Shown: positions 1 to 60,525 of the stretch, piece by piece
How positions within the stretch are numbered: the stretch's first letter is position 1
Layout of the letters: the number at the start of each line of letters is the position of its first letter
DNA from: Tethya wilhelma
Lineage: Eukaryota > Porifera > Demospongiae > Tethyida > Tethyidae
Length of the DNA: 64,000 bases
Reading direction: 5' to 3'
Assembly (NCBI GenBank): GCA_964030475.1
Contig: CAXIPT010000006.1
Span: forward strand, 4,773,022 to 4,837,021
Position numbers and translations under genes: made by a program
Notes under the pieces: model-generated
What the model was told of the DNA's origin: nothing
Seen by the model: the letters and a program-made list of their open reading frames with translations, nothing else
Database searches by the model: none

Positions 1-862
1 ATAACATCAGAGTTGTCCAAATAGAATGATCCCTGAAATAAAAGATGATTATTTATATAATATGATAGAAATCATGAAAAAAATTATACACATAAACAAT
101 TAAGTATCTAAACTTACCAGTAGGACTTTCTCAATGGTGACTCCACTGGTGATACTGAGGATCCAATTGACTGGTTCATACGAGACAAACACAAGCACCA
201 ATGGCCTGATCACTGGACCAACCACATTTATCCTCACGTTAGTGTTACCAGATCTTGTTACTGGACCAAAACCATGATTGTAATCTCCTTCATAGTTGCT
301 GATCACATGGACGTCATAGTTACAGTTCTCATTAGCCACACAGCTGTAGTTGGTCTGGGTCCGTCCTTCAAATGTTGGAGTCCCAACTGCTGAAGTTGAA
401 CCTCTCTGAATACGACACTGCCCACTTATAACTACATTGGATCATGCATAGGAAAGTAATCTAACTCTAAAATGAGCCACATAACCCTAGCTGCTGATTT
501 TTCCATCACTAACCAAGACAGGTACAGTAGTCTCTCTCAGGGTTGTTGACACATCTACAGTAGCCATTAATACACCGTGAGCCAGTATAGTAGCTATCAG
601 GACACCAGTCTGAAGCACCAATACATCTAGTGCCAGTTGAACCACAAGCTGTGAATGTAGGATTATAAATGGTAGCATCATTATAAATCAATAACAGTTA
701 CTGTTTAATATTCATAAACAAACATGAAGCAAGCTTTGTCTTATCTATACGGCCCGCACAGACTTGAAAATAGACTGTACACTTACTTTGTCCACTGGTA
801 TGGGTAGTGACCGCTATCAAAACGAGTAGAATTATAGCGGTGCCTGAAAAAGTAGCAATCAT
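1..862 (-). CDS. Receptor-family gene A, 5' part (runs off left edge)
   Basis: This is the first part of a secreted or membrane protein of the tandem receptor family. Exons on the minus strand are 862-787 (signal peptide, starting MIATFSGTAI and ending near SGQ), 648-514 (Cys-rich mini-domain), 431-118 (first half of the beta-rich module, ending in EKVLL) and 33 to beyond 1 (start of the second half). Phases are 1-1-1-0, as in genes B, C and D, and every border is GT-AG. The Cys exon reads CGSTGTRC...GYCRCVNNPERDYCTCLG, with an extra WCPDSYY insert compared with B and C. The TM exon would lie to the left of the window. The signal exon is closer to the pseudogene at 5.7-6.3 kb than to B, C or D. 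Function is unknown; a surface recognition role is inferred only from architecture. Confidence 0.8.
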
Positions 863-2010: not shown

Positions 2011-3683
2011 ATGATGAATTATTCCAAGAAGACACTCATAGCCTTTGTGGCTGTTGTGGTGCTGACTAATTCAGGTACTATATAAACTGCACACATGGGG
2101 ATGGAAATCAATTCTTTGAATTTCAAGTGCAATGTGCATGCGTGCCTGATGATTTAATTGCGACCATAATAATATACACTGTATGAAATAAAGTATAATT
2201 ATAATAATATTATGCAGTCATGTACATAATACCTTTGCCCAGCATCATGTAGAAATAATGGCATGATTATTACTATAATTACGTGCATTGTCTTTTTTTT
2301 ACAGCTCACTGTTGCAGTCCTTGGGATTGGATCAAATGTGCTGGTGCAGTTGCCAATTGTGCTGCTAGCTGCATACCAGATCCGTTTGTTCCTGGCTGTG
2401 AGGCTTGTCTTGGTGAATTGTACAACGACTGTATTAGTTGCATCACTCTCAACAAACAGCTGGATTCATTAGTCAATGTGACAGGCAAGCTTAAAATGAA
2501 TTAAGTTTTCAACTTTAATAATTATTTCTCATGCCTCTGCATGTGCACGTGTTAGCTACAATATACTTCTTTGATTTAACAAAGAAACCAAAACTCTCAA
2601 ATGTGCATATCACCTTCATATAATACATGCCAGACAGACTCAGTCTGGCATAGTAATCATGTCTTAGATAATGATTATAGTAAAAGCTATAAGGTATTAC
2701 TATAACAATAATATAATTATACCAAACCTTAATTTGCACTGATTCAATTTTGTCTTGTTACAATTGATTCCACAGAATCTGAATTGGCTATGCCATTGAA
2801 CACCTCAATTCAGCTGGATTGCAGCCCTCTCAACTGGGTCAAGTGCTCTGCAGAACTTATAGATTGTGAAATTGCCTGTGTACGCAGTCACGATACCATT
2901 GCCTGCATAACGTGTATCTCTCCCTACAAAGCTTGTTTGCACTGCGTTCCAGAACTATTGGCTTCAAATGTAAATGGGACAGCACTGAGTACAGGTACGT
3001 GAGTAGATCCAGGCTCAGATTTTAACTTGTTTGTGTTCAACAATCATAAAATTAATGAATGATCTTGTAAACTTAATGAGAGGTGGTATATCTTTGTTTA
3101 GTCACTGCAGTGAGTGCTTGTTCTCCCATGGATTATATGCTTTGTGCTTTAAAGATCGCTGAATGTGCTGTAACATGTCGAACTACTGGCATCAGATCAG
3201 GACCATGTATTTCATGTTTTGGTGGACTGTATGATCGCTGCATCGGTTGTCTTCCACTTGATACGGCTATTCAGACTCAAGACAATGCTCTTGCAAGTTA
3301 GTACATGACTACATACTCAGTCTTTGTCAGTCTTTGCTCGATATACTTTTAGAGAATCTGATTTTTTAAATTCTTATTTTAATAGGCTGATATTGACAAT
3401 TATAATTATAGTGTGTGCTCCTGATTTATATCAATGCATACAGATTGAATATTTTAATGTTCGTATTTGAATAATTATATAGGTTGTAACACTTCCGACT
3501 GGATATCATGTGGTGGAGCTTTGGTTACGTGTGTTGGAGAGTGTATTGATCATGGAGTGACTTCGCCCCAATGTTTCCATTGCCTTGGATCTTCCTATGA
3601 AAAGTGCATCAGGTGCATCTCGGCAGAAGGCATGAAAGACATTGATCGACTCGCTCAAGAACAGCAGTCTCGAGGTGGGCCCA

Positions 3684-3726
<43 letters not shown>

Positions 3727-4137
3727 TGTGTTGGTGTTGCTACACAACTATATGGGTTATAGCCTCATTCGCATCAGGCTCTCTCCTTTGACCTTTAATG
3801 TAGACATACAAGATGAAAGGTCAAAGGGGAGAGCCTGAGAATGATCTGGGTATGTATAAACTAGTTATAATTTTAGTTAGTCACAAATACATAATAATTT
3901 GAGTAATAATTCTCCTTGCAACTATAGTCTTGAGTTTTCGTACTGGCGGAGCACCTACTATACATTTCTGTAAGTTACATTCTTGGTTGTTAATTTTATG
4001 GCACTAATGTTTACATGCATGCATTCACATCCACAATATTATTGATTCATGCATGTGATTCATGTGAATACATTGTAGCTCTTGGAGTACTGGGTGTTAC
4101 AGCTGTGGTGGCTATGAAAACTGTCACCGTATTTTAA
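2011..4137 (+). CDS. Secreted/anchored protein with four 8-cysteine domains
   Basis: Seven exons (2011-2074, 2305-2484, 2776-2994, 3102-3296, 3483-3674, 3928-3969, 4079-4137) join in frame to about 316 residues. Exon 1 encodes a signal peptide (MMNYSKKTLIAFVAVVVL). Exons 2 to 5 each encode one domain with the pattern C-x7-C-x6-C-x3-C-x8/9-C-x2-C-x6/7-C-x2-C; the first Cys is usually followed by an aromatic (D/N)-W or D-Y pair. All domain exons are phase 1-1, so they can be duplicated or shuffled. The last exon encodes a hydrophobic stretch (LGVLGVTAVVA) and ends at once, which suggests a C-terminal membrane anchor or GPI signal. The intron after exon 2 uses a GC donor (G|GCAAGC). A TATAAAAG box lies at 1818-1825. 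I do not recognise the domain family. It is on the opposite strand to the receptor array. Confidence 0.82.
3690..3722. repeat. (GT)n microsatellite
   Basis: Pure GT run inside the intron after exon 5 of the 8-Cys gene. Confidence 0.95.
3765..3844. repeat. Inverted repeat with CAGGCTCTCTCC ends
   Basis: The arms TCATTC...CAGGCTCTCTCCTTTGACC and its complement lie about 20 bases apart in an intron of the 8-Cys gene. A similar hairpin (CCAGGCTCTCTC / GAGAGAGCCTGG) occurs at 55941-56000, which suggests a dispersed foldback family. Confidence 0.7.
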
Positions 4138-6481: not shown

Positions 6482-8889
6482 TTAGTCTGTTATTGATTCT
6501 TGGGCTTGCTGGTTTTCAATCACTGTAAGTTCAGGTGACTCAATCATCCTTGGAGTGAAGGATGATCCACTGATGTAGCTACGAGGGTCGTCATACTCAG
6601 TGTAGGTGGTCTTCTCTCTTTCCACGGCTCTCACTCTCAGCACACAGGCAGCAGAGAGGATGACTACACCCAGGAGGAGAAGGAGGAGAAGGAGGGAGAC
6701 AAACACTGATGTGAGGACAGTTCCAGTGGTGGAGAAGGAACTGGAGGAGGAACCAGCTTGGGGATCTTCAATCTCATTTTGAGAGCAATCTGTCACTGTA
6801 AGTGTGTGCATATGAGCATAATATTATGTGAAATACATCTACCTGTACTTGTAAGTCTGCAGTATCACTTGTTTTTATAAAAATAAACCCACACTACTGT
6901 TAATATTAAAAAAACCTGTATAGCCTTGTTGCTGGACGATATTCAGTGTCCACCTATCTGCACTGTAGGATCCACTAAAAGATGACACTGGACCAAATCG
7001 GCCTTCTAAATACTCAAAAAGTAGTTCAGCATTTCTACCATCTTTGTAAGCATATTTTAAAGTGTCCCGTGGCACTCTCTCCAGACTTTGTACAGACCCA
7101 GAATGAGTTACGTCTGATGTATCCAAATAATAGGACCCCTGAAATAATATAATATTGAGAGAATGCAGTTAATGAAGTCCAAACATAATAATATTATACT
7201 CACCAGTAGGACTTTCTCAATAGTGACTCCACTGGTGATACTGATGATCCAATTGACTGGTTCATACGAGACAAACACAAGCACCAATGGCCTGTACACC
7301 TGACCAATGACATTTATCCTAACGTTAGTGTTTCCAGTGTTGTGAACTCTGAACCCAGTATGACCATCTCCTTCATAGTTGCCAATCACATGGACGTCAT
7401 AGTTACAGTTGTGAGCATCAGCAAAACAGCTGTAGGTGGTCTGAGGCTCTCTGTCAAATGTTGGAGTACCAACTGCTGGTGAAGAGCCTTGTCTGATACG
7501 ACACTCTCTACTCAGACCTGAAATAAAGAGTCAGCACAGCCTAGCAGCTGAGGCTTCACATGACAGTAATAACCTACCAGCTGGGAAGGGATTCGGTGTG
7601 GTAACTGTTGGGGCAAAATTTGAGGCAGAAGCAGAAGAAACTGGAACACTTGGACTTGTTGGCAAATTACGACAATTTACAGCTTTGGTAGCACAGAATG
7701 AAGGAAAATACAATGATTGAACCAATTCATATAATCGTCTTTGAAAGAAGATGAGTGTGCAGGTTGTAATCCATACCTTGTTGTTGTATATTTAGTGTCC
7801 ATCTATCTGCTCTGTAGGATCCACTAAAAGATGAGACTGGACCAAATCGACCAACAACATACTCTAGAATCACATCAGTTTTACAACCTCCTGTGTCACT
7901 ACCATATCCACAAGGAAGGGTGTTATAGGAGTGCCTCTCTAGACTTCGTACAGACCCAGAACTATAAGTCACATCAGAGTCGTCCAAATAGTATGATCCC
8001 TGTAACAAAAATGTTACAATTAATTGCCATTCACATGCAGATGTATAGCTATGCCTATTATACTCACCAGTAGGACTTTCTCAATGGTGACTCCACTGGT
8101 GATACTGAGGATCCAATTGACTGGTTCATATGAGACAAACACAAGCACCAATGGCCTGATCACTGGACCAATGACATTTATCCTCACGTTAGTAGTTCCT
8201 GGGCTGTGAACTCTGAACTCAGTGTGACCATCTCCTTTAAAGTTGCCAATCACATGGACGTCATAGTTACAGTTCTCATTAGCCACACAGCTGTAGTTGG
8301 TCTGGGTCTGTCCTTCAAATGTTGGAGTCCCAACTGCTGAATTTGAACCTTCTTGAATATGACACTGCCCACTTATAGCTGTAGTAGATAACGTAGTCAT
8401 AACGTAGTCATATAGAAAAATCCTAGATAAGTTTCATTTTTCACTAACCAAGACAGGTACAGTAGTCTCTCTCAGGGTTGTTGACACATCTACAGTAGCC
8501 ATTAACACATTGTGAGCCAGTGCTGGAGCTACAGTGGTTTGAGGTACCAATACGTACACATCGACTGCCAGTCAAACCACAAGCTAAGAATTAATGCAGA
8601 ATCATGGATAAATAATAATTATGAAAAGCTTATAATATTTGATTAATGTAAAGTGGCAATGAGTATCATAAGTACCATACACATCTCCATGCAGAGATCT
8701 CAGAATAATAAATTATTATCATAATTGTTGCAATTACTAAATTTAATGCAAAAGTGTGTAGATCTCTAATAATTAACATACCATCTAGACTGTATACTAT
8801 AATTTATACATACATGTGTTTTGCCCACCGACATTGATGATCACCACCAGTATTGTAAGAACAGCACTCAGGTATAGAACCCTATCCAT
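6482..8889 (-). CDS. Receptor-family gene B: two-module type I membrane protein
   Basis: Eight exons join in frame to about 566 residues: 8889-8814 (signal peptide, MDRVLYLSAVLTILVV), 8583-8449 (Cys-rich mini-domain), 8378-8068 and 7999-7777 (module 1), 7682-7578 (Ser/Thr/Pro-rich linker), 7517-7204 and 7138-6916 (module 2), and 6795-6482 (TM and tail). Module halves carry conserved blocks such as YDVHVIGN, RPLVLVFVSYEPVNW, SGVTIEKVLL and RFGPVSSFSGSY.ADRWTLNI. A Ser-rich stalk is followed by a roughly 20-residue Leu/Val TM helix and a tail starting RVRAVEREKTTYTEYDDP. The donor after exon 7 is a weak GTTTTT where gene C has GTTAGT. The family is not one I can name; ectodomain plus tail suggest an adhesion or recognition receptor. 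Confidence 0.86.
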
Positions 8890-9360
8890 TAGTTCACTCT
8901 TGCATGGTCAAGTCTTGCTTGCATGTTTTGTCTCCGTTGATAATTGTTTGTTGACGTATTTATATGAGTTACATTTTCCCAAAAGCATTGATGGCTACAA
9001 ACAAGCATTCCAAACTCTGAATCTGTTGTTAGCATGTTTTTATTCTTGTGAGCATGCGCCATTACGCAAAACTTTTGAAGTGACAAAATGTATATAGCGA
9101 TACGAACATCAACGATAAAACAAATTTGCAAGAGATGAGATCATGGAATATAATATGCATTTCAATATAGGGACTTACTACTTACTATTGACTTACTACT
9201 ATTGCATACATATGCTTTGTCCACTGACATTGGTGATCACTACCAGAATTGTAAAAACAGTACTCAGGTCTAGCCTGGACCCTATAATTATATCCATCAT
9301 CTTCACCCTTGGTGTAGAATGATGATGTCAAAGTCCTGTTATAAAATACTATTATAGAAT
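6916..9360. repeat. Segmental duplication, copy 1 (gene B unit)
   Basis: Exons, introns and upstream DNA match 10764-13250 almost throughout, including promoter sequence and an orphan signal exon. Differences are small indels, for example about 60 bases present only at 12896-12957, and 57 bases missing from the linker exon of the other copy. The duplication looks recent. Confidence 0.9.
9215..9305 (-). pseudogene. Orphan signal-peptide exon upstream of gene B
   Basis: It matches the signal exons of genes B to D (LSAVFTILVVITNVSGQS in frame), but the hydrophobic frame has an upstream stop and no ATG. The only ATG is out of frame. It may be an alternative first exon but is more likely a relic. 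Confidence 0.55.
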
Positions 9361-9469
9361 GTGAAATTCCGTATTATAATTGTTTATTGTAGAGGAAAAA
9401 CGTGCTGACAACAGCTTCAGAATTTGGAATGCTTGCTTGTATAGCTTTCATGACCATTAATTATCATAC

Positions 9470-10190
9470 GTACGGTAGTACGTATAGTAGGAATGGGCCG
9501 ACTGTCCCATAGACACTATACAAAATGTTGGCCATTATAAAAATCTAGTCAAACAAAATTAAACCTTCAAAGGTGCTCAGAGGCTCTTAGTGACAGATTA
9601 CCAATTGCATGCATGGCCTAAAACTCACAAAAACTTTCCTCAGAACTCGTAGTGAGCGCTATTGGGAAGCCACCATAGTGCCATTTTTGTTCTCTAACGT
9701 ACTTACGTACTTACGTACGTACTTCCTAACTGACTTACTTGAAAAGGATTTCCAGAGAACCAGAAAGTGTTGAGCCAACTTTGACAGCACAAAGTAAGTT
9801 CTTTTCTTGGGTACTACATTCCTTGATACTCGTTTCAATCTCAAATGGGCCTAAACAAAAACTAGAAAGCTTTGAAACTTAGTGTATAAATTCATGTACT
9901 ACAATGCAGCCATCTTGTACGTAGAGTTCAAAGGTCATCCATCCACGTGGCATTATTATGCGCATGCGCATTAGCCTACTCCAGCATAATGAATAGTAGC
10001 TGCTACTCAAGCTTTTTGTAGGGACTATATTAACCAGTCTCTGATTGTCTCCACACTGTAGTGTTGAAAAAAGTGAATGAACAAGTAGTAAAAATTTCAA
10101 AAAAATAAGTAGTGTAGGAATGGGCAGTGCGTTAAAAAGCATTGGAACAAGGCATGACATTGTCTCAATTTCGGCACATGACTACTTCAT
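9470..10190. repeat. Dispersed repeat, copy 1
   Basis: This block is found again, reversed, at 57530-58430. Shared landmarks are the tacgtac-rich end next to gtaggaatgggcc, the block ccaccatagtgccatttttgt, and cagtgcgttaaaaagc next to the caaaattgagac-type end. No convincing open reading frame is present. It lies where the TM exon of gene C would be expected. Confidence 0.85.
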
Positions 10191-10344
10191 TTTTTATGCC
10201 CAACTCTTGGCCAGCAGTCCAGTTTAAGTTGCCTGTCTTATTATGATTTACTCCACTGCTTAGCCAACTGATTAGATCAAACAAATGCAACAACAAGCTA
10301 TGGTACTATTTGCATTTATGACACTGATGATCCATATTAGGGAT

Positions 10345-10715
10345 CAAGAATAAATCAAAAATGAAGTAGTCATGTGCCAAAATTGAGACAATGTCATGCC
10401 TTGTTCCAATGCTTTTTAACGCACTGCCCATTCCTACACTACTTATTTTTTTGAAATTTGTTCCACTTATTAGCTAAGTGATAAGATTGGTAGAAATTTG
10501 AACCATTAGTACGTGATCCATACTGATTAGCTATTCAAGTATACAGATCATTCTGTGAACAATTTACGACAATTATCAATGAGGGATCAAAAATGAAAAT
10601 GAAGTAGTCATGTGCCGAAATTGAGACCATGCATCCTTGTTCCAATACTTTTTACCACACTGCCCATTCCTACACTGCTTATTTTTTGAAATTTTTACTA
10701 CTTGTATATATTATT
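10345..10715. repeat. Two extra inverted copies of the dispersed-repeat end
   Basis: 10350-10465 is the inverse of 10080-10190 (aaatgaagtagtcatgtgcc ... cccattcctacac). 10588-10715 repeats the same end a third time. The arrangement is a head-to-head rearranged or nested insertion. Confidence 0.8.
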
Positions 10716-10763
10716 ATGAGTATGTATTCTGTAATCATTAATTCATAAATAAATGACACTAAC

Positions 10764-12729
10764 CTGTGTAGCCTTGTTGTTGGACGATATTCAGTGTCCA
10801 CCTATCTGCACTGTAGGATCCACTAAAGGATGACACTGGACCAAATCGGCCTTCTAAATACTCAAACAGTAGTTCAGCATTTCTACCATCTTTGTAAGCA
10901 TATTTTAAAGTGTCATATGGCACTCTTTCCAGACTTTGTACAGACCCAGAATGAGTTACATTTGATGTATCCAAATAATAGGATCCCTGAAATAATATAA
11001 TATAGAGAGAATTATTACTATAATATTATGCAGTTAATGAAGTCCAAACACAATAATATTATACTGTGACTTATACCAGTAAGACTTTCTCAATGGTGAC
11101 TCCACTGGTGATACTGAGGATCCAATTGACTGGTTCATACGAGACAAACACCAGCACCAATGGCCTGTACACCTGACCAATGACATTTATCCTAACGTTA
11201 GTGTTTCCAGTGTTGTGAACTCTGAACCCAGTGTGACCATCTCCCTCATAGTTGCCAATCACATGGACATCATAGTTACAGTTTTGAGCATCAGCAAAAC
11301 AGCTGTAGGTGGTCTGAGGCTCTCGGTCAAATGTTGGAGTACCAACTGCTGGTGAAGAGCCTTGTCTGATACGACACTCTCTACTCAGACCTGAAATTAA
11401 GAGTCAGCACATGCAGCCTAGCAGCTGAGGTTTCACATGACACTAATAACCTACCAGCTGGGAAGGGATTGGAACTTGTTGGCAAATTACGACAATTTAC
11501 AGCTTTAATTGGTAGCACAGAATGAAGGAAAACACAATGATCAAATCAATTCATATAATCATCTTTGAAAGATGACATGCGTGCAGGTTGTAACTTGTAA
11601 TGCATACCTTGTTGTTGTATATTCAGTGTCCATCTATCTGCTCTGTAGGATCCACTAAAAGATGAGACTGGACCAAATCGACCAACAACATACTCTAGAA
11701 TCACATCAGTTTTACAGCCTCCTGTGTCACTACCATATCCACAAGGAAGGGTGCTATAGGAGCGCCTTTCTAGACTTTGTACCGACCCAGAACTATAAGT
11801 CACATCAGAGTCGTTCAAAAAGAATGATCCCTGTAACAAAAATGTTACAATAATTAATTGCCATTCACATGCAGATGTATAGCTATGCCTATTATACTCA
11901 CCAGTAGGACTTTCTCAATGGTGACTCCACTGGTGATACTGAGGATCCAATTGACTGGTTCATACGAGACAAACACCAGCACCAATGGCCTGATCACTGG
12001 ACCAACCACATTTATCCTAACGTTAGTGTTTCCGGATCTTGTTACTGGACCAACACCATGATTGTAATCTCCTTCATAATTGCTGATCACATGAATGTCA
12101 TAGATACAGTTCTCATTAGCCACACAGCTGTAGTTGGTCTGGGTCCGTCCTTCAAATGTTGGAGTCCCAACTGCTGAATTTGAACCTTCTTGAATACGAC
12201 ACTGCCCACTTATAGCTGTAGTAGATAACATAGTCATAATGTAGTCATATAGAAAAATCCTAGATAAGTTTCATTTTTCACTAACCAAGACAGGTACAGT
12301 AGTCTCTCTCAGGGTTGTTGACACATCTACAGTAGCCATTAACACATTGTGAGCCAGTGCTGGAGCTACAGTGGTTTGAGGTACCAATACGTACACATCG
12401 ACTGCCAGTCAAACCACAAGCTAAGAATTAATACAGAATCATGGATAAATAATTATGAAAAGCTTATAATTGATTAATGTAAAGTGGCAATGAGTATCAT
12501 AAGTACCATACACATCTCCATGCAGAGATCTCAGAATAATAAATTATTATCATAATTGTTGCAATTACTAAATTTAATGCAAAAGTGTGTAGATCTCTAA
12601 TAATTAACATACCATCTAGACTGTATACTATAATTTATTATATCTATACATACATGTGTTTTGTCCACTGACATTGGTGATCACCACCAGTATTGTAAGA
12701 ACAGCACTCAGGTATAGAACCCTATCCAT
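10764..12729 (-). CDS. Receptor-family gene C: two modules, no TM exon
   Basis: Seven exons follow gene B one for one: 12729-12654 (signal), 12420-12286 (Cys-rich), 12215-11902 and 11830-11608 (module 1), 11502-11455 (linker, 16 codons against 35 in B), 11390-11077 and 10986-10764 (module 2). All phases are kept. The last exon ends in a good donor (GTTAGT), but no copy of the TM/tail exon exists between it and gene B; that space holds dispersed-repeat DNA. Reading through the donor gives a stop within two codons, which would yield a secreted protein of roughly 460 residues. Module 1 has the NYNHGVGPVTRSGNTNVR variant seen in gene A rather than B, a sign of gene conversion. It may be a soluble form, a splice partner of gene B's last exon, or a decaying copy. 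Confidence 0.78.
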
Positions 12730-13094
12730 TAGTTCACTCTTGCATGGTCAAGTCTTGCTTGCATGTTTTGTCTCCGTTGATAATTGTTTGTTGACGTATT
12801 TATATGAGTTACATTTCCCAAAAGCATTGATGGCTACAAACAAGCATTCCAAACTCTGAATCTGTTGTTAGCATGTTTTTATTCTTGTGAGCATGTGTAC
12901 ACTATAGCTATAATAGTCGAAAGTGAAGGTAATTATAACTTGACTTTTTCGTGCATCGACCATTACGCAAAACTTTTGAAGTGACAAAATGTAGCGATAC
13001 GAACATCAACGATAAAACAAATTTGCAAGAGATGAGATCATGGAATATGATGTGCATTTCAATAAAGGGACTTACTACTTACTATTGACTTACT

Positions 13095-13192
13095 ACTATT
13101 ACATACATATGCTTTGTCCACTGACATTGGTGATCACTACCAGAATTGTAAAAACAGCACTCAGGTCTAGCCTGGACCCTATCCATCATCTT
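13095..13192 (-). pseudogene. Orphan signal-peptide exon upstream of gene C
   Basis: Same sequence and same defect as the copy at 9215-9305. The LSAVFTILVVITNVSGQS frame has no start codon and is preceded by a stop, so the defect predates the segmental duplication. Confidence 0.55.
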
Positions 13193-13691
13193 CACCCTTG
13201 GTGTAGAATGATGATGTCAAAGTCCTGTTATAAAATACTATTATAGAATGTGAAATTCCGTATATAATTGTTTATTGTGGTATTTTATGAGTTACATAAT
13301 TAATGGTCATTTCTGAAAGCTATACAAGCAAGCATTCCAAATTCTGAAGCTGTTGTCAGCACGTTTTTCCTTTGTGAGCATGCGCAGTGCCAAAGCACTG
13401 AATGATGTAACTTGATTTGTTAGCGCATCGACCATTACCCAAAATTATTGAATGATTTGAGGTAATAAAAAGTTACTAAGTACCCAAACCATAGATAATA
13501 TATATATTCACAAACCTAAGTGGTATCTACTTAATCATGTAATTTGTGCTGCACTGACCTAGCTTGTCTTTTTAAGAACGAACTTTAGTGTCTTTTCATG
13601 TAAACATGTTACATAACATGATACATAACCTCATCTTACTGTTTCTAAATTTTAGTACTACTAATAAAAAAAAAGATGACAGCTTAATGCT

Positions 13692-14050
13692 TCAATAATA
13701 TGGTATGTTGCTTTCATAAGGTGGAGGGGGGTCAAAATTAGTTACAGGTGATTCTACTTCATTTATAGTGAAGGATGACCCACTGACGTAGCTAGGAGGG
13801 TCGTCGTACTCAGTGTAGGTGGTCTTCTCTCTTTCCACGGCTCTCACTCTCAGCACACAGGCAGCAGAGAGGATGACCACACCCAGGAGGAGAAGGAGGA
13901 GAAGGAGGGAGACAAACACTGACGTGAGGACAGTCCCAGTGGTGGAGAATGAACTGGAGGAGGAACCAGCTTGGACTTCTTCATCAGCATGATTATCAAG
14001 ATCGATATGATCGTGATCAGAGGAAACAGTCTGAGAACATTCTGTGATTG

Positions 14051-14081
<31 letters not shown>

Positions 14082-15406
14082 TTCTTTGATATAGAGTAGT
14101 TGTGTCTATAACACTGAGGTATTTGTAAGCCACTCTCTGTTGGTATGTGCACTTAATTTAACCTAGCTTGTTGCTGGACGACAAAAAAAATTAATATTCC
14201 TCGAAAACCATGGTAACAAAACGAGCTTGAGACACTATTTTAGGTACTCTTACCTTGTTGTTGTATAATCAGCATCCATCTATCTGCTCTGAAGGATCCA
14301 CTAAAGGATGAGACTGGACCAAATCGACCAACAACATACTCCAAGAGTTGATCAGTCTTTCCACCTTCTAAATCATTGCCATATCCAGTGGGAAGAAATG
14401 CCCGAGAGACTCTTTCAAGACTTCGTACAGACCCAGAGCTATAAGTCACATCAGAGTTGTTCAAATAGTACGATCCCTGAAATAAGAACATTGGCCATAA
14501 ATTATGTAACATTTTACATGTAGAAAAGTGTATCTACACTCACCAGTAGGACTTTCTCAATGGTGACTCCACTGGTGATATTGAGGATCCAATTGACTGG
14601 TTCATACGAGACAAACACCAGCACCAATGGCCTGATCACTGGACCAACCACATTTATCCTAACGTTAGTAGTTCCTGGGCTGTGAACTCCGAATTCGGTG
14701 TGACCATCTCCTTTAAAGTTGCCAACCACATGGACGTCATAGTTACAGTTCTCATTAGCCACACAGCTATAGTTGGTCTGAGTCTGTCCTTCAAATGTTG
14801 GAGTCCCAACTGCTGAAGTTGATCCTTCTTGAATACGACACTGCCCACTTATAGCTGTAGGAAAATAATTGAGTTACGTACACTTCTCTAGGGATTTTCC
14901 ATCACTAACCAAGACAGGTACAGTAGTCTCTCGCAGGGTTTTTGAGACATCTACAGTAGCCATCCACACATTGTGAGCCAGTGTTGGAGCTACCAATACA
15001 GTAGGTGCCAAAACATCTACTTATAGTAGAACCACAAACTATAGAGAAATGGAATACAGTCATTATAGTTATATAAACATAATAATGAACAACAAAAAAA
15101 TTGATTTAACAATTTAGTATGGTATAATTATTATAATAATATATTTGCAAATTTGCACAAGCAAGAGTCTTAATTACTAGTATAGACCATAATATATCTC
15201 CAGACACCCAAGAATAGTTATTGCAGTCATTAAAGGGTTACTTTTAATTAACATACCATCTAGACTAGCCTAACTTGTAAACCACTATACTTGGCACTTT
15301 TCTAGACTATACATATACCTGTGCTTTGTCCACTGACATTGGTGATCACTACCAGTGTTGTAAGAACAGCACTCAAGTATAGCATCATCTTCACCCTTGG
15401 TGGCAT
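13692..15406 (-). CDS. Receptor-family gene D: one-module type I membrane protein
   Basis: Five exons join in frame to about 366 residues: 15406-15319 (signal peptide MPPRVKMMLYLSAVLTTL), 15038-14910 (Cys-rich mini-domain, two residues shorter than in B), 14854-14544 and 14476-14254 (one module), and 14041-13692 (acidic/Ser stalk, TM helix, tail). The tail shares RVRAVEREKTTYTEYDDP with gene B and then carries two PPxY sites, PPSY in YDDPPSYVSG and PPPY in FDPPPPYESNIPYY, typical ligands for WW domains of NEDD4-type ubiquitin ligases. Gene B's tail has PRSY and lacks both. D looks like the simplest complete member and may resemble the ancestral form. Confidence 0.87.
14054..14082. repeat. (GT)n microsatellite
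   Basis: GT run just upstream of the acceptor of the gene D TM exon. Confidence 0.9.
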
Positions 15407-15776
15407 AGAATGATGGTGATGTTGGAGTCTTGTATGCTTAACAAAACAATAGAAGGTGAAATTTGACTCCATTGATAATAATTGCTTGTTGCCATATTTT
15501 ATGAGTTAGACTTCCCCATGCAAAGCATATGCTACAGGCAAGCATTCCAAATTTTGAATCTGTAGTTGATCAATAGTATGAAGTGACATAATGTTACAAC
15601 ATCAACAATAAAAATAGATTTGTAAGAGATGAGTCTTAAGAGATCATGGAATGACATGGTGTGTATATGCATTTCAATAGTGTGCAATCGTAAGGTGATA
15701 AATAAAAAAAATTGCCACAATTCTACCTACAAGGCTGATTGCAGCAAACTTGCTAGCTAGCTAACTGTGAGCTCCA

Positions 15777-18700
15777 TCATACTTGGAACGTACTACTAGC
15801 ACTCAGGTCCTGTCCATTAATAATCTCAGGAGGTGGTGATCTTGACCCCGCTCTTCTTGGCTCTAAGCCGTACTCCTCTAAGTGGTGATGTTCATTACTT
15901 GTCATAGACAAATCGGAAGAGTTAGTCAAAACATTGTCTGATTTCTTTGAAGAACTTGGCGAGCCTTTTTTCTTTGAGTACGGTGATCCTCCATCAATGT
16001 GGTCTCCAGGATCGTCAAAATCGTAAGTAGTTCTCTCTCTCTCGAGTTTATTAGTTCTTACTCTCATGACAACAATGAGGAAGCAGAGGACTATGACACA
16101 GATGAAGACCAGTGACCCCACCCCTGCTGCCACTGCTGCTATGAAAATGATGGAAGGGAAGGGTGTGGCTTTGGCCTGGATTTCTGTGTGTGTGTATGAG
16201 TGAATGTGAAAACCTTATTTACTACTAGTGCAGATGTTTGTGTGTGTGTACTCTCTCTCGATCTCTCTATCACACGCTACAAAGGAAGTTGTCTCATGAT
16301 CACAGGCCAGCCCCTTCTCTGTGAGAATAGTCTGGCCTGTCAGAATACAGCAGGAAGGATATGTTGGAAGCTCTATTCTGGCATTAACTGTACCTCCTTA
16401 GTAAAGCAAACACTTATCATGAGTGCTTGCTTGACATGTGTACAGTACATACCCATTTTGAAACTTATAGGCCACACAAAAGTACACAAAGGATGTAGTA
16501 TGTGTGTAAGCAATCATAGTGGTCTTGTATGGCAATAAAAACAGTGTGATTGGTCCTCATGTAAGCAGTCCGTAAGGAGACCCACAGCACCACAAAACAC
16601 CACCACGCTCCCCGTTCTACTTATGAGTAAATTAGCCACTTCCCTTCACTAAGGATTCAATCACTGACCACACTGATAATCAAATTACCTAATGATCCAG
16701 GGGCATATTCCACATCGCCTCTGCCGGCGCTGTTTACAGCTGCTACTCCAACCACATAATCTCCTGGCTCTGAGACACCACTGATGTTCAGTGTTCTTGT
16801 GCTGTTGGTTGCAGTGGTTCGATTATTTAAGCTTTCAAACGAAGAGGGGCGCTCCCCTTGATGAAAGAATATGATGTAATGGTCGACAGGGGTCATTACT
16901 TCAAAATCAACATCAGGTTCCTGAGCAAGTGTGTGTGCATACACGAGTCAAATGACTTGAAACATACATATTTAAACACATACTTTAACATTAATGTGTA
17001 TACTTTTGAAGTAAGATCATCAAGTGAATGTAGATGCAGTTGGTTGGATCAACATTGCCATCTGCCAATCCTACACACCAAACATCACAATACCATTACA
17101 GGTGCACAATTTATACTGATTGAATTCTTCAAAAAAAAAACAACTTATCTTTGTAACTAACACAGGTTAGATCAAGATCAAACATAGAAGTCGTAGGAGG
17201 TATGGTAAACACCGTGAGTGAGAGTGAGGGCAGAGAGTGCACACACACATTATCCCAAAGGCAGTGGAGGTGGCAGAATCAACAATACCATAAGCAATGC
17301 TACAGTTGTGACTACGATAGCTATGGCCTAGCTAGCTACAGTCGGTGAACCAATTGTTCATGTACTACATACAAAGTGGTGTCCATCCTTCCACCCTTGC
17401 CATGTGACAACAATGATCCATGGAAATGCCTTCCTAAAGAGCCAACCATCAACAGGAAGGAGTAGCTACACGGGACGTACACACAACATAAACTATAACC
17501 TCATGCACACACACACTGTGCACTTCAAGTTCAATATCATGGGGGAATGTTTAGGCTGTACTAAAAACTATTCTACATTCAAACTTTTCAAGAAACGTAC
17601 AATATCACAACCAACATAGAGACATACCCTCCACGTGACAATGATCACATGATCTCCATTCTCGTCCACTTCCAGGACGGCCTCCACCCCCTCGGGGGCC
17701 GGGGGTACGAGGGGGCTCATTGGTGCCACCACAACCGGCCTCGACTTTGCTCCCTCTCCAAAAGAGTTCCTCCCTGCAATTATCACCTCGTAACGAGCTC
17801 CGGGAGTCAACCGATGCAACACGGTACTGGTCCGATTGTCCTCCGTCTGAAGTTGAACGGTCTCGTCCGAACCAAGCCTCGTGACGTTGATATTGTAGCC
17901 CTCCAGGGGGGCATCGTCAGGGGCAGGGGACTTCCCCCAGTCGATGGTGACAGTTGTTAAAGTGTCATCGGACTGAATGGTGTTGGATATCGGGGCAATG
18001 GGAGCACCATCTGTGAGGGGGTGGGTGAGTGGATGGGTGAGTGAGTGAGCAAGTGAGCAAGTGATATTGTGTGTTGCATTAAATTTTGAGTGTTCAAAAA
18101 CAAGGCTATTGCTTGTACATTTGTATTGTACTGCCAGACATAACAAATTAAGGAACCTTCAGCTTGCTCACACTTATACTGTAACATGAAAAATATTGGC
18201 AATGATAGGTTTCAAAACTATAGTGTTCAACAAAGAGGCTACTGCTATATTATACTGATTTTGGCTTTAAAAAAGTTAATCTACCCATTGGCAATGACTC
18301 CTTCAAAACACACTGTGTGTCCATTCAGTGAGAAGCAAGGGAAGGAAGCCCATGCTGTGCAGCAGTGGACTTGCATTATGAGGTACACTAATGGAGCCAA
18401 GCTGCTTCAAGTGGAGCAAGCCAAACAAAGGTCTGTAGATAACAACCCAGAGGAAGTGCCTCAAAAGATCACCATCAATTATACTCCAAACCACACACAT
18501 TTACTTTGAACCATACACACACAACCACCACCAGCTAGCAAACAACCCAGCATCCCAGTGCATCATATGAACACATCCTATTTGTATATCAACAGGACTA
18601 TCACAAGAAGATCAGTTCCAGCCATGGCAGTATCTCTGAGTCAATACTGGGCCTATACTGTGGGAGCTGATGTTGATACAACCTGTTGTCATGCGGGCAC

Positions 18701-21700
18701 CAAAAGAGAAATAATTATTGAATTTGCTCAGAGACAATTCATCGCAATTACGTATGTAGATAGTGTTCTACTCCATTACAAGTTCCCATAGCATAGATGC
18801 AGCACACTGCATGAATACAGTGAGCTCACCCACACACATACACTCACACACGATGCTTTTATAGTCCCTGAAATGACTGAATAGAAGCTTCAATCACAGA
18901 ATCAGATACGTGCCAAACCAAATACATTCAGCTGATTCAGCAATGGACAGACAAAGAGTGTCATACGTGAATGACTGTGCCAGCTACATGGACACTACCA
19001 CATGTGCTTGTTAACATGGACCATGACTCTAAAACATGTGCTAGCCACATGGAAGAACCTATAGAGTCCAAGTGCAGAAATAGTGCAGCCATTACATTTA
19101 TTAAAATATATTTTCCAAAAGCCAATAAAATGAAAGCACCTATGGTGCACAAGCCTCGGCGCACTCATATAGCTAGCATGCAAAACAAAAATGAATGACA
19201 CAGTATATCAGTAAAGGAAGACCGTCATCATTGAGTATTGAGACCCAAGTAAGCTGGCATCTTGAAATGACCTGCGCAGCCCCATGCAATCAAGCCGGTA
19301 CGATCAAGTTGAGCCAGCCTAGCTATAATCTATAGAACACTCACTTAAGACTAAAATTAATATCCATTGAACAGTGAAACTTTAACAGTTACACTGCAGA
19401 TGCTTATTTATTTGAATGATAAATTATCTGACTGGCACTACTGATTCAGGCATCAGTGCAGCCTGAAGTTCACTCAAAACAACATACATGTATCTAAGAT
19501 CAGTAAGATCATCATGATAGTTCCACAAAATGCTATCTTACTTGAGTTACGTGCCTGGACAAGCAGCCAAGATATCTAAACTGGCCCAGCACTCTTCCAG
19601 ATCCTCCAAGCCTACTGTATTTCTAGATAACGCACACTACATGGGGTGTAATTGATGGGTGTGGTTTCGAAGCCTAAGCGCTCAGAGATGCACAAAAGCC
19701 TCAGATCTCAGAAACTACATTGTTTTGCAAGATTCTACACATCAAATTTCAAGATAATTTCGATTCATGAACGTAAGTACCTTCCATTGTGACTCTAGAG
19801 CTGCCATTCTTCAGATAATTTAGTAACAGACACACACACACACACACAAAACGACTACCGTAACCCTCTGCACGTGCTACGCACGCGCCGAGGCTTAACA
19901 AGTTAATTTTAGAGAAGAAGAGTTAATCGACATTCCATTAAGATGATGCCTGACCAACATGACATTAAGAATCTGCATAGCTAGCTACATCACTACATAC
20001 ATAGGTACACAATGACCTACAACAACTGTATCAAGGTGGAACAGCAAGAGGTACAGAGGAGGGACTATATCATATGCAGGGAGGCTACGGGAGTGGCTTT
20101 AGGGGCAATCATATGGACTCCAGTGGAACAAGAAATCCATCTCAAACTCTGCCTACATTTTGCTCCCAGGCCTCCTGTGCCAATCATTGCATGCAACCTA
20201 CATACTCCTTTTCTTTTTGCTTTGTTGCACACTAAACAGCATCATGCATGCAGCCAATAAAATGCGATAATGAAAGCAGTTATGAATAAAATGGTAAAAT
20301 TTTGAAGCATCTACACACAGAGATACACCCACAGAGATTGTCAATTAATTCATAACAACTAGGGACTTACCCCCAACATAAACGATGGCTTGACTGGTAG
20401 TAGCCACCCTGACACCATCTCTGATTACAGCACACCTCACAGTCGAGCCAGAATCTTGAAGCTCCACGGGAGAAATGAGCAGACCAGTGGCTATACCATC
20501 GCTATTAGACAAAATATCATGTCTCTCTGGTGGAAAGTACATGTCAATTTCTTGAGAGTTCTTGAACACGGTCGAGTGTACTGCTATGGTGATGTCGCTG
20601 TTGTCTCTCAGCTCAACAGCCTCGCAACGAATGAGCAAGACCCCACTCATATAACCGTAATAATAGTCCTGCAAGTCTTCAACAAAATAGATGGAGTCAT
20701 CGGTGCTATCTGTGAGAGTAAGTGTGTGTGGGATTGGTAAAATTATAACATGTGTGCTATGTGTATGTGTAGAAGTAAGTGCATAAGAGCTACCATATTT
20801 ATATGAGTACAATTAAAACCATGTTTGTGACAATGCTCTCTGGAATAGCCAATACAATGAGCTACATAGAGCCAACATAGAATGTACATGACAGACAATG
20901 TGTAAACCAAGCACACATGCAGTATTGATACACAGACACAGCTGTGATATGCTAACACTGGAGCAAATTGCACAACAGGTTGTGTAAACTTGAACACACC
21001 AGTCTATATATGTGAGTACTGAAACCAACAGAGATCATTTAATGTCATCAAAAATGTCTCCATTCATTCACGACATGAACAGGCCAACACCCAACAATAC
21101 AGACAGACACTGGAACTGTAAAACTGTCGAGAAAAATCTCGACAATTTACAACAACGCTTCTTGTTTCAATAACCCGGTCACATAGCTACCTGCCCTTTA
21201 TACACACAATCATCATAGTCCCAAGACCCACTGTACATACACACAAATAACTACGATAGGAACAGTATGCGGTATATGTAGCACCAAACCATTGAAGGTG
21301 CAATTTGAGAAGCTTCACTCTCTCGACTTCAGTGGCCAGTGCCTTTGAAGCTGTTTACCTACAGTGTACCATAGGCCCACTCCTATCAACACACACACAG
21401 CATGTAAGGCAGTATGGTGCACACTGTGTGGTATGTTTGTGTATGTACAGATACAGAGGGCTGTTGTGAGAACACATAGAAAATGGCTGGGCCTCTGATG
21501 ACCAAATTTGGTGATTTTAATAAACAATATTGACAGGAGAAGTGAGCAAACATTGGACAGATTGATGTACTACAATAGTACTTGATACTGGCAATCAATT
21601 TACTATCACTTTGCTCTGGTAGCACTCAGTTTAATGGGCTGGTCTGTGTTTGTTTGCCATCAAGGTTGTCTCCCAGTCTAAACCATTCTCCTACACATGT

Positions 21701-49551: not shown

Positions 49552-52500
49552 TCAGCTATATACTTCAATGAAGTTGTTAATTTCAGTCTCCCTCTCCACT
49601 CCAAACCTGTCACTGTCTCTGATGTAAGGATCAAGACGGATATTAGAGAATTTCGAGGATCTAGGTTCCAGTTCAATGTTAGCAATTCCTTTTTGCTGTT
49701 CTGCTTTGTCAGATATCTCCTTCATTGATTTGCTGATCTGTTTGCCTAACAAATTGTTTTCATCTGAGGTTTGCTTGGGCACCAGTGAAGGTGAAGGTGA
49801 AGGTGAAGGTGGTTCTCTGTTAGTGGCTGACTCATTCTCTGCTATTAAAGTTACTTTTCTCTCTTGTTTACCAATTGCTTCCTTCTCCATACTTTCTACT
49901 TGTTTTTGAGTTGGTGGGTCCACCACACTGTACGTGACCACAGGACGAAGAACACGGATGATTTCAAGATCAGTGGATTCTGGTTTGATGAGTCGTAGCT
50001 TCATTTTGAGGATGAAGGAGTCGAGTTTGGTTCTTGTTTTCCTTGGAAGTACAAAGGCGTACGTATGATAGGTCAAGATGGCAAGGAAGGTGATGAAAGC
50101 AATGCTGGTTGAAGTGTAGGCTTAGAGACTCTTGATTTCCAGCACCACCTCCTCTGAGGTAGAGAGAACCAGAAGAAAACAACATGAGGTTACAAATAAA
50201 TGATATTTCGAGTGCATCCAATGGCCATGATTTGTAGATTCTCCCTGGTAGTAAAATTTTTAGTATCAAGAGAAATACTAGTGTGGTGTTGATTGCTAAA
50301 AGGTTATTTCCAGGATCCTCACTGACATTAAGTGCAGCCACAACATACAAGATGGCACGAATCGAAAGCAGTAATCCAGTCCAGTAGCGATGTTTAATAT
50401 TATAAGGAGCAAGATAAGCATCCATGAAAGGATAAAACCGTGCATTTTTGAGTAGTTTTACCATCCTATTTGGGCAACGCAGAAGCCACTGATAAAAGAA
50501 AAGGAAAGAGGTGTATACAATGCCCACCAGGAGAATAAGAAGAGCTACTAAAAACAGATGAATGTGTTTCCCTTTTAAGAACTGTACATTTGCATCAATC
50601 AGCCACACTATCTCTTGTGAACCATCAGGATACTCCAGTGTTGCTGAAGAGAATGCAGCTATGATGACACAAAGGCTTTTGGTATAAGAGAGTAGAATGA
50701 GAGTAGCTAGTGTTGCCACTGGATTTGTTCCAGTAATGAGTCTAGCAATTCTTGTAGAGTATTCACAACCAATGATCACCATGGTAACCAAGAATGTGAT
50801 GTAGATTGGGAAAGCAAGCTGTAGCCATTCTTTGACATAGCCATCCATTCCATCAAAGAAGCAGGTCACAAAACCAAAGTCTAGATTGAGCCATGAAATG
50901 AAGATGGTGAAGAAATTAGGAGATTGAAATGGAAAGAAAGTGGCACGGTTTGTTGTGAGGATGTTGGCATAGAATATGAGTCCGTTGATTGTTCCAACAG
51001 CTACAGTCAAATTGAAAATTAGAAGAAAAGCAACTATTGCTACACCAGCTATAGCGAAGACAATGAGTAGAGCTAGCCAGTTGTTTGAGCAAGACAAGCA
51101 ATGTGAACTACCAAAAGAGAGACTGAGACCATCCTTACAAGACCCACAAAGCTTGCCACTACGATTGAAAGCACACTGTGCATCAGAATCATTGGGTATG
51201 TTGAGGTTAATCCAGACTGGAGAGCTAGATGGATGGCAGTAGTCAAATGGACAATGAGGATAAGTTAGATAGGGACACTGAGTTTTATTTTGATAGTCAA
51301 CAAGATCATGATTAGATTCATCAATCATAATATGTCTTATCCAGATATTGTTGCTTCTTTTGACTGATGAGTTACTAACAGAACAGTCAGTTATGTAGTC
51401 AGAGAGACAAGGGTCACATTCACAATTACATGTAAACTGCTGCACAATGAAACCAATTGGACAAGGGCAGGAAACAAACTGCATATTGATGATGGTATCA
51501 TTGTTCAGATTAAACTCTTTATCATTGAGATTCAGCACTAGTTGTTCTGAAATACGTGGGGAAGATATGGTGTAGCTTAACTTTGTGCAGTTTGAAGTTG
51601 TGTTCTGAATGTCTTCTCCTTCAGCTAGTCCACCAGGATTTGAAGACAATGCTCTCACCGAATATGGAACTGGATTTCTGACTTGGTCCACAGCAACTAC
51701 TGATACATTGAAACCCAATTGAGATGTTATCTGGAATGTATATGTTACTGAAGTGCTGTCACAATTTGGTTGGTTGCAGTTTGTACATAAGCACACACGA
51801 ACTGGTTCTGATGATATCTCTGACTGTAGAATAGCATTCGTCCTGAGGTTTGTAATTTGTGTTAGATATGATGTTGCACCAATATAGATGTTATGAAACT
51901 TGTTAAACACCTGTGCCCTAGGACTGACTGTACACCTGTCTAACAGACCTCCAAATATTGATGCACCTGATATGCTAGCAGAGTTATTAGCAAAGAACGT
52001 ATTTTGAAGAATTAAGTCATGATAACTCACATTATGTGAGGCTAGGTCCTGAAGGAAGCATTCAGTTGAGTCTGATGTATGATCAGAGATATACAGTGCT
52101 CCACCATATTCAGCTAAATTATTTGTAAAATACAGTCTAAGACTTGACATTGATTGTTGCATACAATGAGGATTATAGTGAACACTAGAGCACTCTGGTA
52201 GAGACTTTATCAAATGAAGTTTAGCATCTGACTCCAAATGAATTCCACCTCCTTTCTCAGCTCTGTTCTTATTAATCTCAAGTTGACCTCCAATTAGTCT
52301 TACTACTGAGTCATTAGCATAAATTCCTCCACCTTTTCTTGCAAAGTTCTCTGATATTATGTTTATACCACTAAAGTTTAACTCAACCTGATTGGCATAT
52401 ATCCCTCCCCCAGTCAGTGCTGAATTGTTTGTAATTTGAAAGAAACTATTCATGGTGATTTTAGTCTGGACGTAAATTGCACCACCTCGCCTAGCTGCAT

Positions 52501-54463
52501 GGTTATGGTTGAAGATACTGTTGTTGATTTTATTGACACTATCAGTAGCACTACCACTATATGTAGCACTACCAAGGAACAGCACGCCACCATCATTGAG
52601 AGCTGTGTTTCTGATGAAGACACTACCATTTATACTTAACAATCCATTACTAATGTATGTCTTTAATACACCACCAGAGCTAGCTGTGTTGTTAGTAAAA
52701 TTACTACCATGTATGCTAATATTATCCCTGTATGTCCTTACTGCACCACCCCACTGACCTGCTGTGTTGTTACTGAAATCACTACCATGTATGCTAATAC
52801 TACCCCTGTATGTCCATATTGCACCACCCCACCTAGCTGTGTTGCTACTGAAATCACTACCATGTATGCTAATACTACCACTGTCTGTCCATATTGCACC
52901 GCCCCACCTAGCTGTGTTGCTACTGAAATCACTATCATGTATGTTAATACTACCACGTGCACCCCACCAACGTGCTGAGTTGCTATTGAAATCACTATCA
53001 TGTGTACCATGTGCATTGCCTGTCACTATTGCACCACCACCATAACCTACTGTGTTGCCTGTCACTATTGCACCACCACCATAACCTACTGTGTTGTTAG
53101 TAAAATTACTACCATGTATGCTAATACTACCTCTGCGTATCCTTATTGCACCACCCCACCTAGCTGTGTTGCTACTGAAATCACTACCATGTATGCTAAT
53201 ACTACCACTGGATGCCCATATTGCACCACCACCACCACTACCTGCTGTGTTGGTACTGAAATCACTACCATGTATGCTAATATTACCACTGTATGTCCAT
53301 ATTGCACCACCACCACCAATACCTGCTGTGTTGGTACTGAAATCACTACCATGTGTGCTAATATTACCACTGGATGTCCTTATTGCACCACCACCACCTG
53401 CTGTGTTGTTACTGAAATCACTACCATGTATGCTAATATTACCACTGGATGTCCTTATTGCACCACCCCACTTACCTTTGTTGCTACTGAAACTACTACC
53501 ATGTATGCTAATACTACCACTGAATGTCCTTATTGCACCACCACTACTACGTGCTGTGTTGGTACTGAAATTACTACCATGTATGCTAATACTACCACTG
53601 TCTGTCCATATTGCACCACCATCACCATACCTAGCTGTGTTGTAACTGAAATCACTACCATGTATGCTAATATTACCACTGTCTGTCCATATTGCACCAC
53701 CATCACCATGATACCTAGCTGTGTTGGTACTGAAATTACTACCATGTATGCTAATACTACCACTGTCTGTCCATATTGCACCGCCATCGGCAGCAATATT
53801 TCCCTCAAAGAGACTTTCAGTAACATTAATATCACTACTAAAGGCAACAATGGCCCCTCCTGATGGTATATCTTGACCTGGATCCCTAGCCCTTCTAAAT
53901 GCAGTGAGATTGGTGAAAGAGCTCCTCTTAAAAGTTGCACTCTTGACATTCCTCAATTCCATTCCATGTCCATCTTGAAATCTACAGTCCTCCATCCTCA
54001 GTTGGTCTAGTGATCTCACAGAGTTCTCCCGGCAGCCACTGAACTCGAGACCACTAACACTGACCTCAGATATGGCATCAAAATCAAAGCCTGAGAAATT
54101 TGTACACATAATCATAGCAACTGAATTAGGGAAAGAGTTTGTATGTGCAACTCATAAAACTAGATTGTTGACATTTTGTATGTGAAGCCGAGAATCAAGA
54201 GTGTGATGACCAGGCTCAAAGATCAGGGTAATGTTGGAGTCAATGGTAGTAGCTGGGGACTGGGCATATTGAGTTAGAGTCAGGCAATCCTCACCCAAGG
54301 AGGTGTAGCCAGTGGGTGTGACAGGAAGTACTTCACCAAGAGTGGGTGTGTTCTCAGTGGGACAGTGGGTGGGGTCTAGTACAATATGATATGTTTGTGC
54401 TGACACTGATGAAGCAATTAACTTAAAGGTGGCTAGTAAGAAAATCAACTGCTGGGCCTCCAT
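49552..54463 (-). pseudogene. Pmp-like beta-helix, multi-TM protein, broken in two places
   Basis: One exon of about 1,630 codons. It starts at 54463 with a signal peptide (MEAQQLIFLLATFKLIASSV). From about 53860 to 52650 lie some 15 repeats of 23-27 residues with the Pmp motif pair GGAI and FxxN (SISIHGSDFSSNTARWGGAI). A Cys-rich region (CPCPIGF...CNCECDPC, LCGSCKDGLSLSFGSSHC) follows, then about seven to nine TM helices from about 51090 to 50110, and a charged Pro/Ser tail. The reading is interrupted by an in-frame TGA at 54152-54154 and by one extra base near 50122, after which the true tail continues in another frame to 49552. Family members elsewhere are intact, so this is a young pseudogene or carries assembly errors. 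It would be a large surface protein. Confidence 0.88.
52650..53860 (-). repeat. Coding repeat array of the beta-helix
   Basis: The DNA unit is about 75 bases (ccatgtatgctaatactacc on the plus strand marks each unit). Near-identical units, including an exact-looking duplication at 53030-53095, point to recent unequal exchange. Open readings on the plus strand here are by-products of the repeat. Confidence 0.9.
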
Positions 54464-54548
54464 TTGCAGTTGAACCAGGATATTGATATACTTGAACGGG
54501 AGGTTTTGTTATAAATGTCTCACTGCATGTACATGTTGCCATATATAT

Positions 54549-59560: not shown

Positions 59561-60525
59561 GAATACACACCACAATAGGTGCAAATGTGAAAGGTAGGTA
59601 GCTACACAGAAATAAAGATATATAGTAGTTATATGTAAAGAGTTAAGTAAATTATAGAGTTAGACAGTGCACATATAGATAATCTCCTTCTCAAGCTGAA
59701 TGTTCTGTAGCGGATTAAGTCTAGCATCTCGGATGAAGTTGGCACAGAGGACTTGAGCAGAGTGATGAGACTTTGCATAAAGATGGCCGGTCAAAGTATT
59801 GACACCAAAGGAAGTATAAACCAGAAATTGACTCTGAGAGAATACGTCAGATAATAGGTTTGAAGTGGGGGTGCCGAACAGCTGAAAGAACGATGTTGCG
59901 GGAACGTCGTAGAACTAGATTAACAATGCTTGGCAGGCCACTTATCAGATGAAGGATGGTTGTATGACATCTGCTTGGCAAGCGCCATATCTTGCGAAGC
60001 ATGTTGTTGAAGCATACCTCTAGCCGATGGACCTCACTAGAAGCTATAGACCACAAAGATGCACCATACAAAGAGAGGCAGAAGCTCGAAAGTAGGCGGG
60101 TCTTGGTAAGAGGGTCACATCCAGAAAAGAGAGCAAGCATCGAATTAGCTTTTCTACAAAAGTCACGCTTGATGGAGAGGACATCAGCATCATCAGAGAG
60201 ATCTTGGCTCAGGCAATGACCAAGGTGGTTAACCTTGGTAGAGAAATTGAGCAATTGGCCAAACAGACTAAAATTGGAGGAGGATGAGGCTGGAAGACCA
60301 GGAGTGGCAAAACGAATAAGCTGTGACTTTTCAGCATTAAATACCAAGGAGTGTTGTTTAGCAAAAGATGAACAGACATTTACAAGAAGACGGAGAGCCG
60401 ACAAAGAAGGCGCTATGAGGGCCATGTCATCAGCGTAGCAAACAGCACCCACGTAGTGGTGATCCCAGTGACAACCAACACCTGACTTCTCAAGTTCGAG
60501 GAGCAAATCATCTAAATAGACAGTA
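59520..60525 (-). mobile_element. 5'-truncated non-LTR retrotransposon (LINE) with (AAT)n tail
   Basis: On the minus strand, 60525-59847 encodes the C-terminal part of a reverse transcriptase: YADDM active-site box (VGAVCYADDMALIAPSLSAL), a thumb region with SLYGASLW, and a helical end. The rest of the RT and the endonuclease are missing. The element ends in an (AAT)n run, seen as (ATT)n at 59520-59562 on the plus strand, as in CR1/L2-type LINEs with microsatellite tails. The remaining RT part has no internal stop, so the insertion is fairly young. Confidence 0.88.

Follow-up and report, generated by a model that had tools for sequence, protein, structure and literature searches.

In the sponge Tethya wilhelma, two kinds of receptor gene with unrelated outer parts lie side by side on the minus strand and likely owe their last exons to shared descent. 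These genes are found in a 64,000-nucleotide window (contig CAXIPT010000006.1, hereafter C6, positions 4773022-4837021) of an assembly of 124.6 Mb in 204 contigs (GCA_964030475.1), and the gene models are built from sequence, without transcript data. One kind is an Ig-FN3-FN3 receptor (hereafter Ig-FN3), while the other is a tandem family, genes A to D, whose outer modules appear to have the orphan-domain fold of betaglycan and endoglin. The tails of genes B and D read RVRAVEREKTTYTEYDDP and that of Ig-FN3 reads RVRTNKLERERTTYDFDDPG, each starting directly after the transmembrane (TM) helix. A preliminary description of this DNA had given these tails with their frames, positions and placement behind the TM helix, as is confirmed here; they lie in the last exons of B (window positions 6482-6789), D (13692-14041) and Ig-FN3 (15777-16183). 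It had also called the match too specific for chance, a judgement borne out by reciprocal matches confined to the locus, by shuffled sequences and by profile comparison.

When the core motif ERE[KR]TTY was back-translated and searched genome-wide, nine exact places were found, four of which are the tails of A, B, D and Ig-FN3. The other five are GA-repeat stretches (RERERE...) with no preceding TM helix and no following DDP, so that elsewhere in this genome the motif occurs only in simple repeats. It is present in all three intact tails of the orphan-module family (A, outside the window, B and D), while a fourth, TM-less fragment at C6:4766613 has TAY in place of TTY. Within this genome, neither outcome that the preliminary description had named as refuting its view (wide occurrence behind unrelated TM helices, or absence from other copies of both families) was observed. 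When 31- and 34-residue juxtamembrane segments were searched against the whole assembly, all matches (E≤10) fell within one locus of about 23 kb, 5/5 for the D query and 2/2 for the Ig-FN3 query, and each family retrieved the other; these searches scored the five and two best first-look candidates, and weaker places were possibly overlooked. Chance is unlikely because the cross-family match falls reciprocally in the adjacent gene, and not because of its score: the locus makes up 1.8e-4 of the assembly, which reduces the cross-family E values of 0.28 and 0.19 to about 5e-5 and 3e-5. With the whole Ig-FN3 tail as query, ranks 2, 3 and 5 of 10 are tails of the B/D type. Over its full length the Ig-FN3 tail matches nothing in the genome but itself; the Ig exon of the same gene retrieves, apart from itself, a single place at E 0.5 and has no clear paralogue.

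The match was also assessed against shuffled sequences. Over the first 30 residues, the score against Ig-FN3 was reached by 0/5,000 shuffles for each of D, B and A, and with local (block-wise) shuffles the score of D against Ig-FN3 was reached in 1-3/20,000. The GA-repeat-prone ERE stretch does not account for this similarity by itself, the count being 1/20,000 with that stretch masked. A comparison of profiles of the two tail families (four and two sequences) gave 51% identity over 37 columns with E 2.3e-6. The only homologue found of the Ig-FN3 tail, its orthologue P0015 (1/37 candidates at E≤10), begins at a Met after the TM helix (MRVRTKKLERETARYDFDDPGDHID), has 86% overall identity to the window tail and retains RVRT, ERE, the Tyr and DFDDP, so that most of the segment is kept. 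P0015 still matches D (0-1/5,000 shuffles as good; block-wise, 3-15/20,000, or 3/20,000 with ERE masked), and its C-terminus, PPPFES, resembles PPPPYES in A and D (5-14/5,000 shuffles as good, or 17-74/5,000 when everything after DDP is compared), a hint of collinear similarity over the full tails; the window Ig-FN3 tail is without this C-terminal match. P0015 and the orphan-module homologues P0002 and P0004 are each on one contig of 2,078,055 bases, an equality of contig size from which it is probable that the two kinds of gene are linked in that genome too.

Several results weigh against shared descent of the last exon. The genome-wide cross-family E values are not significant on their own, and where whole tails bring them to 0.006-0.064, unrelated places score equally: in the B/D-type search Ig-FN3 is 9th of 13 with four unrelated places ahead, and in the Ig-FN3 search an unrelated TM exon takes rank 4 of 10. 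At the DNA level the Ig-FN3 region showed no similarity to genes A-D, tail exons included (blastn E≤1e-5, dust on). Past DDP, the window Ig-FN3 tail does not significantly match A, D or fragment A2 (616-3,269/5,000 shuffles as good), the same holds for its C-terminus (1,051-1,097/5,000), and the TM helices and stalks of the two kinds are alike in hydrophobicity only. In addition, P0015 has lost the TT (ETARY vs ERTTY in the window), and a search for homologues of the B/D tail gave 3 candidates, none of them at E≤10.

One rival explanation is coincidence, in which R/K/E-rich juxtamembrane segments and GA repeats giving RERER supplied a best-looking pair for the preliminary description to pick. 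The five GA-repeat places among nine, the Ig-FN3 codons CTC GAG AGA GAG AGA ACT and the modest cross-family E values of 0.19-0.28 favour such a view. It is nevertheless judged unlikely, given that the short queries match only adjacent genes and do so reciprocally, that the match stays rare under local shuffles and ERE masking, and that P0015 retains ERE, the Tyr and DFDDP. Slightly less probable still is convergence, by which two unrelated tails in the same cell-surface context would have independently gained the same docking site, of kinase, SH2 or FERM/4.1 type. The unrelated TM helices and stalks, the lack of a DNA-level match and the shortness of a shared block adjoining the membrane are compatible with this, but the motif would then be expected in other receptors, yet none was found outside the locus among the best candidates listed, and adjacency of the genes would not be expected.

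The preliminary description had further proposed that the tail was spread by exon shuffling within one locus. It is likely that the last exon is shared locally, given the reciprocal matches, the profile comparison, the identical exon layout and the intron phase, while "spread" is an overstatement, as there would have been at most one transfer plus tandem duplication. Genome-wide, the first exon of the orphan module (EX1) matches nine places (E≤1), none of them outside C6:4768985-4787876, and over 67 codons the tails of A, B and D differ with a synonymous divergence (dS) of 0.12-0.16 and a nonsynonymous divergence (dN) of 0.007-0.021, which makes the identity of the B and D tails a matter of tandem duplication under constraint, or of conversion. 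Since A, B and D are tandem duplicates, the comparison is one of one family with one gene, a single observation. A phase-1 intron precedes each of the tail exons of B, D and Ig-FN3, and the junction sequence of A agrees; introns of phase 1 also flank the D and B modules, the Cys-rich exons of these genes and the Ig exon. Modules of class 1-1 can be shuffled without damage to the frame, and the locus thereby resembles the exon-shuffled animal receptors of class 1-1, whose Ig, FN3 and EGF cassettes are bounded by phase-1 introns (PMC8001218). While those receptors move extracellular modules, the shared piece here is the last exon with the TM helix and cytoplasmic tail. In animals, however, extracellular modules have phase-1 introns by default (PMC8001218), and the agreement in phase is therefore weak, permissive evidence for shuffling, a further point to be set against the proposal.

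An old duplication of the last exon fits these observations best. One ancestral last exon, with stalk, TM helix and juxtamembrane tail, would have given rise to the last exons of both the single-copy Ig-FN3-FN3 receptor and the neighbouring tandem family, copied within the locus through its phase-1 intron and followed by long divergence at the DNA level; the tandem family would later have been multiplied by ordinary gene duplication. The part that was kept (RVR, ERE, one Tyr, [YF]DDP and a Ser/Pro-rich block) would most likely serve as a docking site near the membrane for an effector common to both kinds. This combination of shared last-exon descent, tandem multiplication and a common docking site is considered moderately probable as a whole. 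Alternative splicing or gene conversion, whereby neighbouring genes would use each other's last exon and so keep the tails alike, is allowed by compatible phase-1 junctions and by a gene C that could splice to the tail of B, and conversion is possible among A, B and D, but as an explanation for Ig-FN3 and B/D it is very improbable, the common residues often being encoded by different codons and the absence of a DNA match indicating no recent conversion.

What the shared tail may do is a separate question. Its Tyr residues had been proposed to give a common output through kinases or SH2 domains, which the sequences fit poorly. The B/D tails read TTYTEYDDP and the Ig-FN3 tail TTYDFDDP, so that only the Tyr of TTY is common to both; its +1 to +3 residues are TEY in the former vs DFD in the latter, Ig-FN3 and P0015 have Phe in place of the Tyr before DDP, and in P0015, where the TT is lost, Arg precedes the shared Tyr. 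The shared part of the tails is more likely to be a docking site close to the membrane, around RVR, ERE and the first Tyr. The basic-[ST]Y-acidic arrangement next to the membrane may resemble that of the FERM/4.1-binding tails of syndecan, neurexin and glycophorin C. The orphan-domain receptors would add signals of their own. PPxY motifs are ligands of WW domains; D has PPSY and PPPY, A has PPPY and B has neither, and in D and A they could recruit WW-domain ligases. EYDDP in the tails of A, B and D fits the YxxP of the CRK/CRKL docking motif pYxxP, the feature by which they resemble DCBLD1/2 and other CRK/CRKL-docking scaffolds, while YDFDDP in Ig-FN3 does not fit, having no Tyr three residues before the Pro. 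Recognition of pYxxP by CRK/CRKL predates animals, and the sponge Amphimedon is reported to have a crka gene (PMC5043372, PMC6029619). The orphan-module receptors are thus predicted to have a CRK-type output, which is not expected of Ig-FN3. DCBLD1 and DCBLD2 carry eight and seven pYxxP sites (PMC6029619), as opposed to the single site in A, B and D and none in Ig-FN3.

That the outer parts of the two receptor kinds are unrelated, as first described, is supported. In the Ig-FN3 gene the frame stays open across the Ig exon, both FN3 domains, the TM helix and the tail, all on the minus strand: an Ig-like exon (20371-20709, phase 1-1; PF00047 E 0.01, 16.6 bits, below the cut-off of 21.8), an exon with the first FN3 domain and the first half of the second (17628-18010, phase 1 in, 0 out; PF00041 E 5.8e-11, 42.9 bits, above the cut-off of 25), one with the second half of the second FN3 domain (16689-16920, phase 0 in, 1 out; 17.7 bits with a partial query, below that cut-off), and the last coding exon (15777-16183, acceptor AG, phase 1 in, open to TGA) with a short stalk, the TM helix, the tail and the stop. 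The first exon or exons upstream of the Ig-like exon were not identified.

Betaglycan and endoglin are TGF-beta helper receptors best known from vertebrates, and their orphan-domain fold is matched by structure models of homologues of the B/D module. The module itself has no Pfam family above cut-off, and its sequence likeness to TGFBR3, although the top PDB match, is not significant (E 0.025 for P0012 and 0.083 for the module profile A6), with no single significant stretch in either comparison and no retrieval of TGFBR3 by the A2 profile. Gene D, also on the minus strand, is one clean open reading frame (ORF) made up of a signal-peptide-like exon (MPPRVKMMLYLSAVLTTLVVITNVSGQS; 15319-15406, phase 1 out), a small Cys-rich exon (14910-15038, phase 1-1), the two module exons EX1 (14544-14854, phase 1 in, 0 out; fold assigned via homologues) and EX2 (14254-14476, phase 0 in, 1 out), and the last exon (13692-14041) with a stalk of about 36 residues, the TM helix, the tail RVRAVEREKTTYTEYDDPPSY with its two PPxY motifs, and the stop. 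The vertebrate orphan domain consists of two subdomains, OD1 and OD2, and is followed by a ZP domain (PMC11865472). The sponge genes differ in having a lone module in D and a plain tandem of two in B instead of the OD1/OD2 pair, no ZP domain between the module and the membrane in the complete ORF of D, and a Cys-rich exon ahead of the module; their tail gave no Pfam match above cut-off. The best Pfam match of this Cys-rich exon (14910-15038, minus strand, and other copies) is Tsg_N, the Twisted gastrulation N-terminal family, at E 0.078, below cut-off; Twisted gastrulation is a BMP regulator.

There are hints that the modules bind ligand. The main contact loop of betaglycan lies between strands 2 and 3 of OD1 (PMC11865472), and in the weak P0012-TGFBR3 alignment it falls on the stretch after YEVHVMSV, within which lie the 16 consecutive residues of EX1 that vary most among eight modules of the locus (a ninth, A1, was omitted because its EX1 is identical to that of A2). 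The mean pairwise difference over the 20-column loop is 0.38, vs 0.16 elsewhere (0.25 before the loop, 0.06 after). All ten TGF_beta (PF00019) matches in the same genome are above cut-off, which shows only that ligands exist. Three TGF-beta-family domain matches within 5.3 kb (C3:4226308-4231594) probably mark a cluster of ligand genes in tandem.

The most interesting feature of the locus is the family to which the tail belongs, receptors with an orphan module of betaglycan/endoglin type that stands alone. No report of such receptors was found among the open-licence PMC papers listed, nor was an account found, in the literature searched, of the deeper origin of betaglycan and endoglin, which are important TGF-beta/BMP co-receptors. 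With a simpler, one-module form in an animal of an early-branching lineage, ideas on how the two-part orphan domain arose could be tested; such a form would also suggest that co-receptors presenting ligand go back as far as TGF-beta signalling in animals. The shared tail exon is a concrete case of an intracellular output possibly moved between receptor types in one locus. A broader proposal, tentative and, taken jointly, rather doubtful, is that single, uninserted orphan modules of this receptor cluster represent the ancestral unit of the vertebrate OD1/OD2 pair and act as TGF-beta-family co-receptors, with a ligand-contact loop diversifying between tandem copies, and that an intracellular exon was exchanged with the adjacent Ig adhesion receptor, so that ligand capture and adhesion would be wired to one effector.

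The remaining family members are also on the minus strand. The last exon of gene B (6482-6789) encodes the stalk, the TM helix and the tail RVRAVEREKTTYTEYDDPRSY, whose C-terminus has diverged and is without PPxY; upstream are a Cys-rich exon and two tandem orphan-domain-like modules (6916-8583; exons 8449-8583, 8068-8378, 7777-7999, 7204-7517 and 6916-7138), which together with the tail exon, and without a signal-peptide exon, form a single ORF of 504 codons to the stop through both modules. Gene C has a Cys-rich exon and two orphan-domain-like modules (10774-12421), and no tail exon was found for it ahead of gene B; it may be spliced into exons of gene B or yield a secreted product. Its DNA (10700-12421) is about 91% like that of gene B over 2.2 kb, up to the last module exon. 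Gene A is only partly within the window (1-649; Cys-rich exon, EX1 and the start of EX2), and the third intact tail exon and additional modules are located upstream. Within 1-649 and just upstream, two gene A repeats have identical protein in EX1 and the Cys-rich exon, and an ambiguous base immediately upstream of the window interrupts the first of them. An EX2-like piece also lies beside an ambiguous base on contig C11 (L072, around C11:2179813); the duplicated repeats and this piece are probably assembly artefacts.

Elsewhere in the window, several ORFs at 2230-3838 (plus strand) carry a repeated Cys-rich motif (CSPxDWxxCxxxxxxCxxxC...CxxCxGxxYxxC-like), and a very long ORF at 49552-54508 (minus strand) has repeats of about 24 residues of the GGAIWTDSGSISIHGSNFSTNTA type followed by several hydrophobic stretches. 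An ORF at 59847-60629 (minus strand) looks by eye like part of a retroelement reverse transcriptase (YADDMALIAPS), while a single ORF of 545 amino acids at 60759-62396 (plus strand) has an N-terminus that by eye resembles a death-fold domain.

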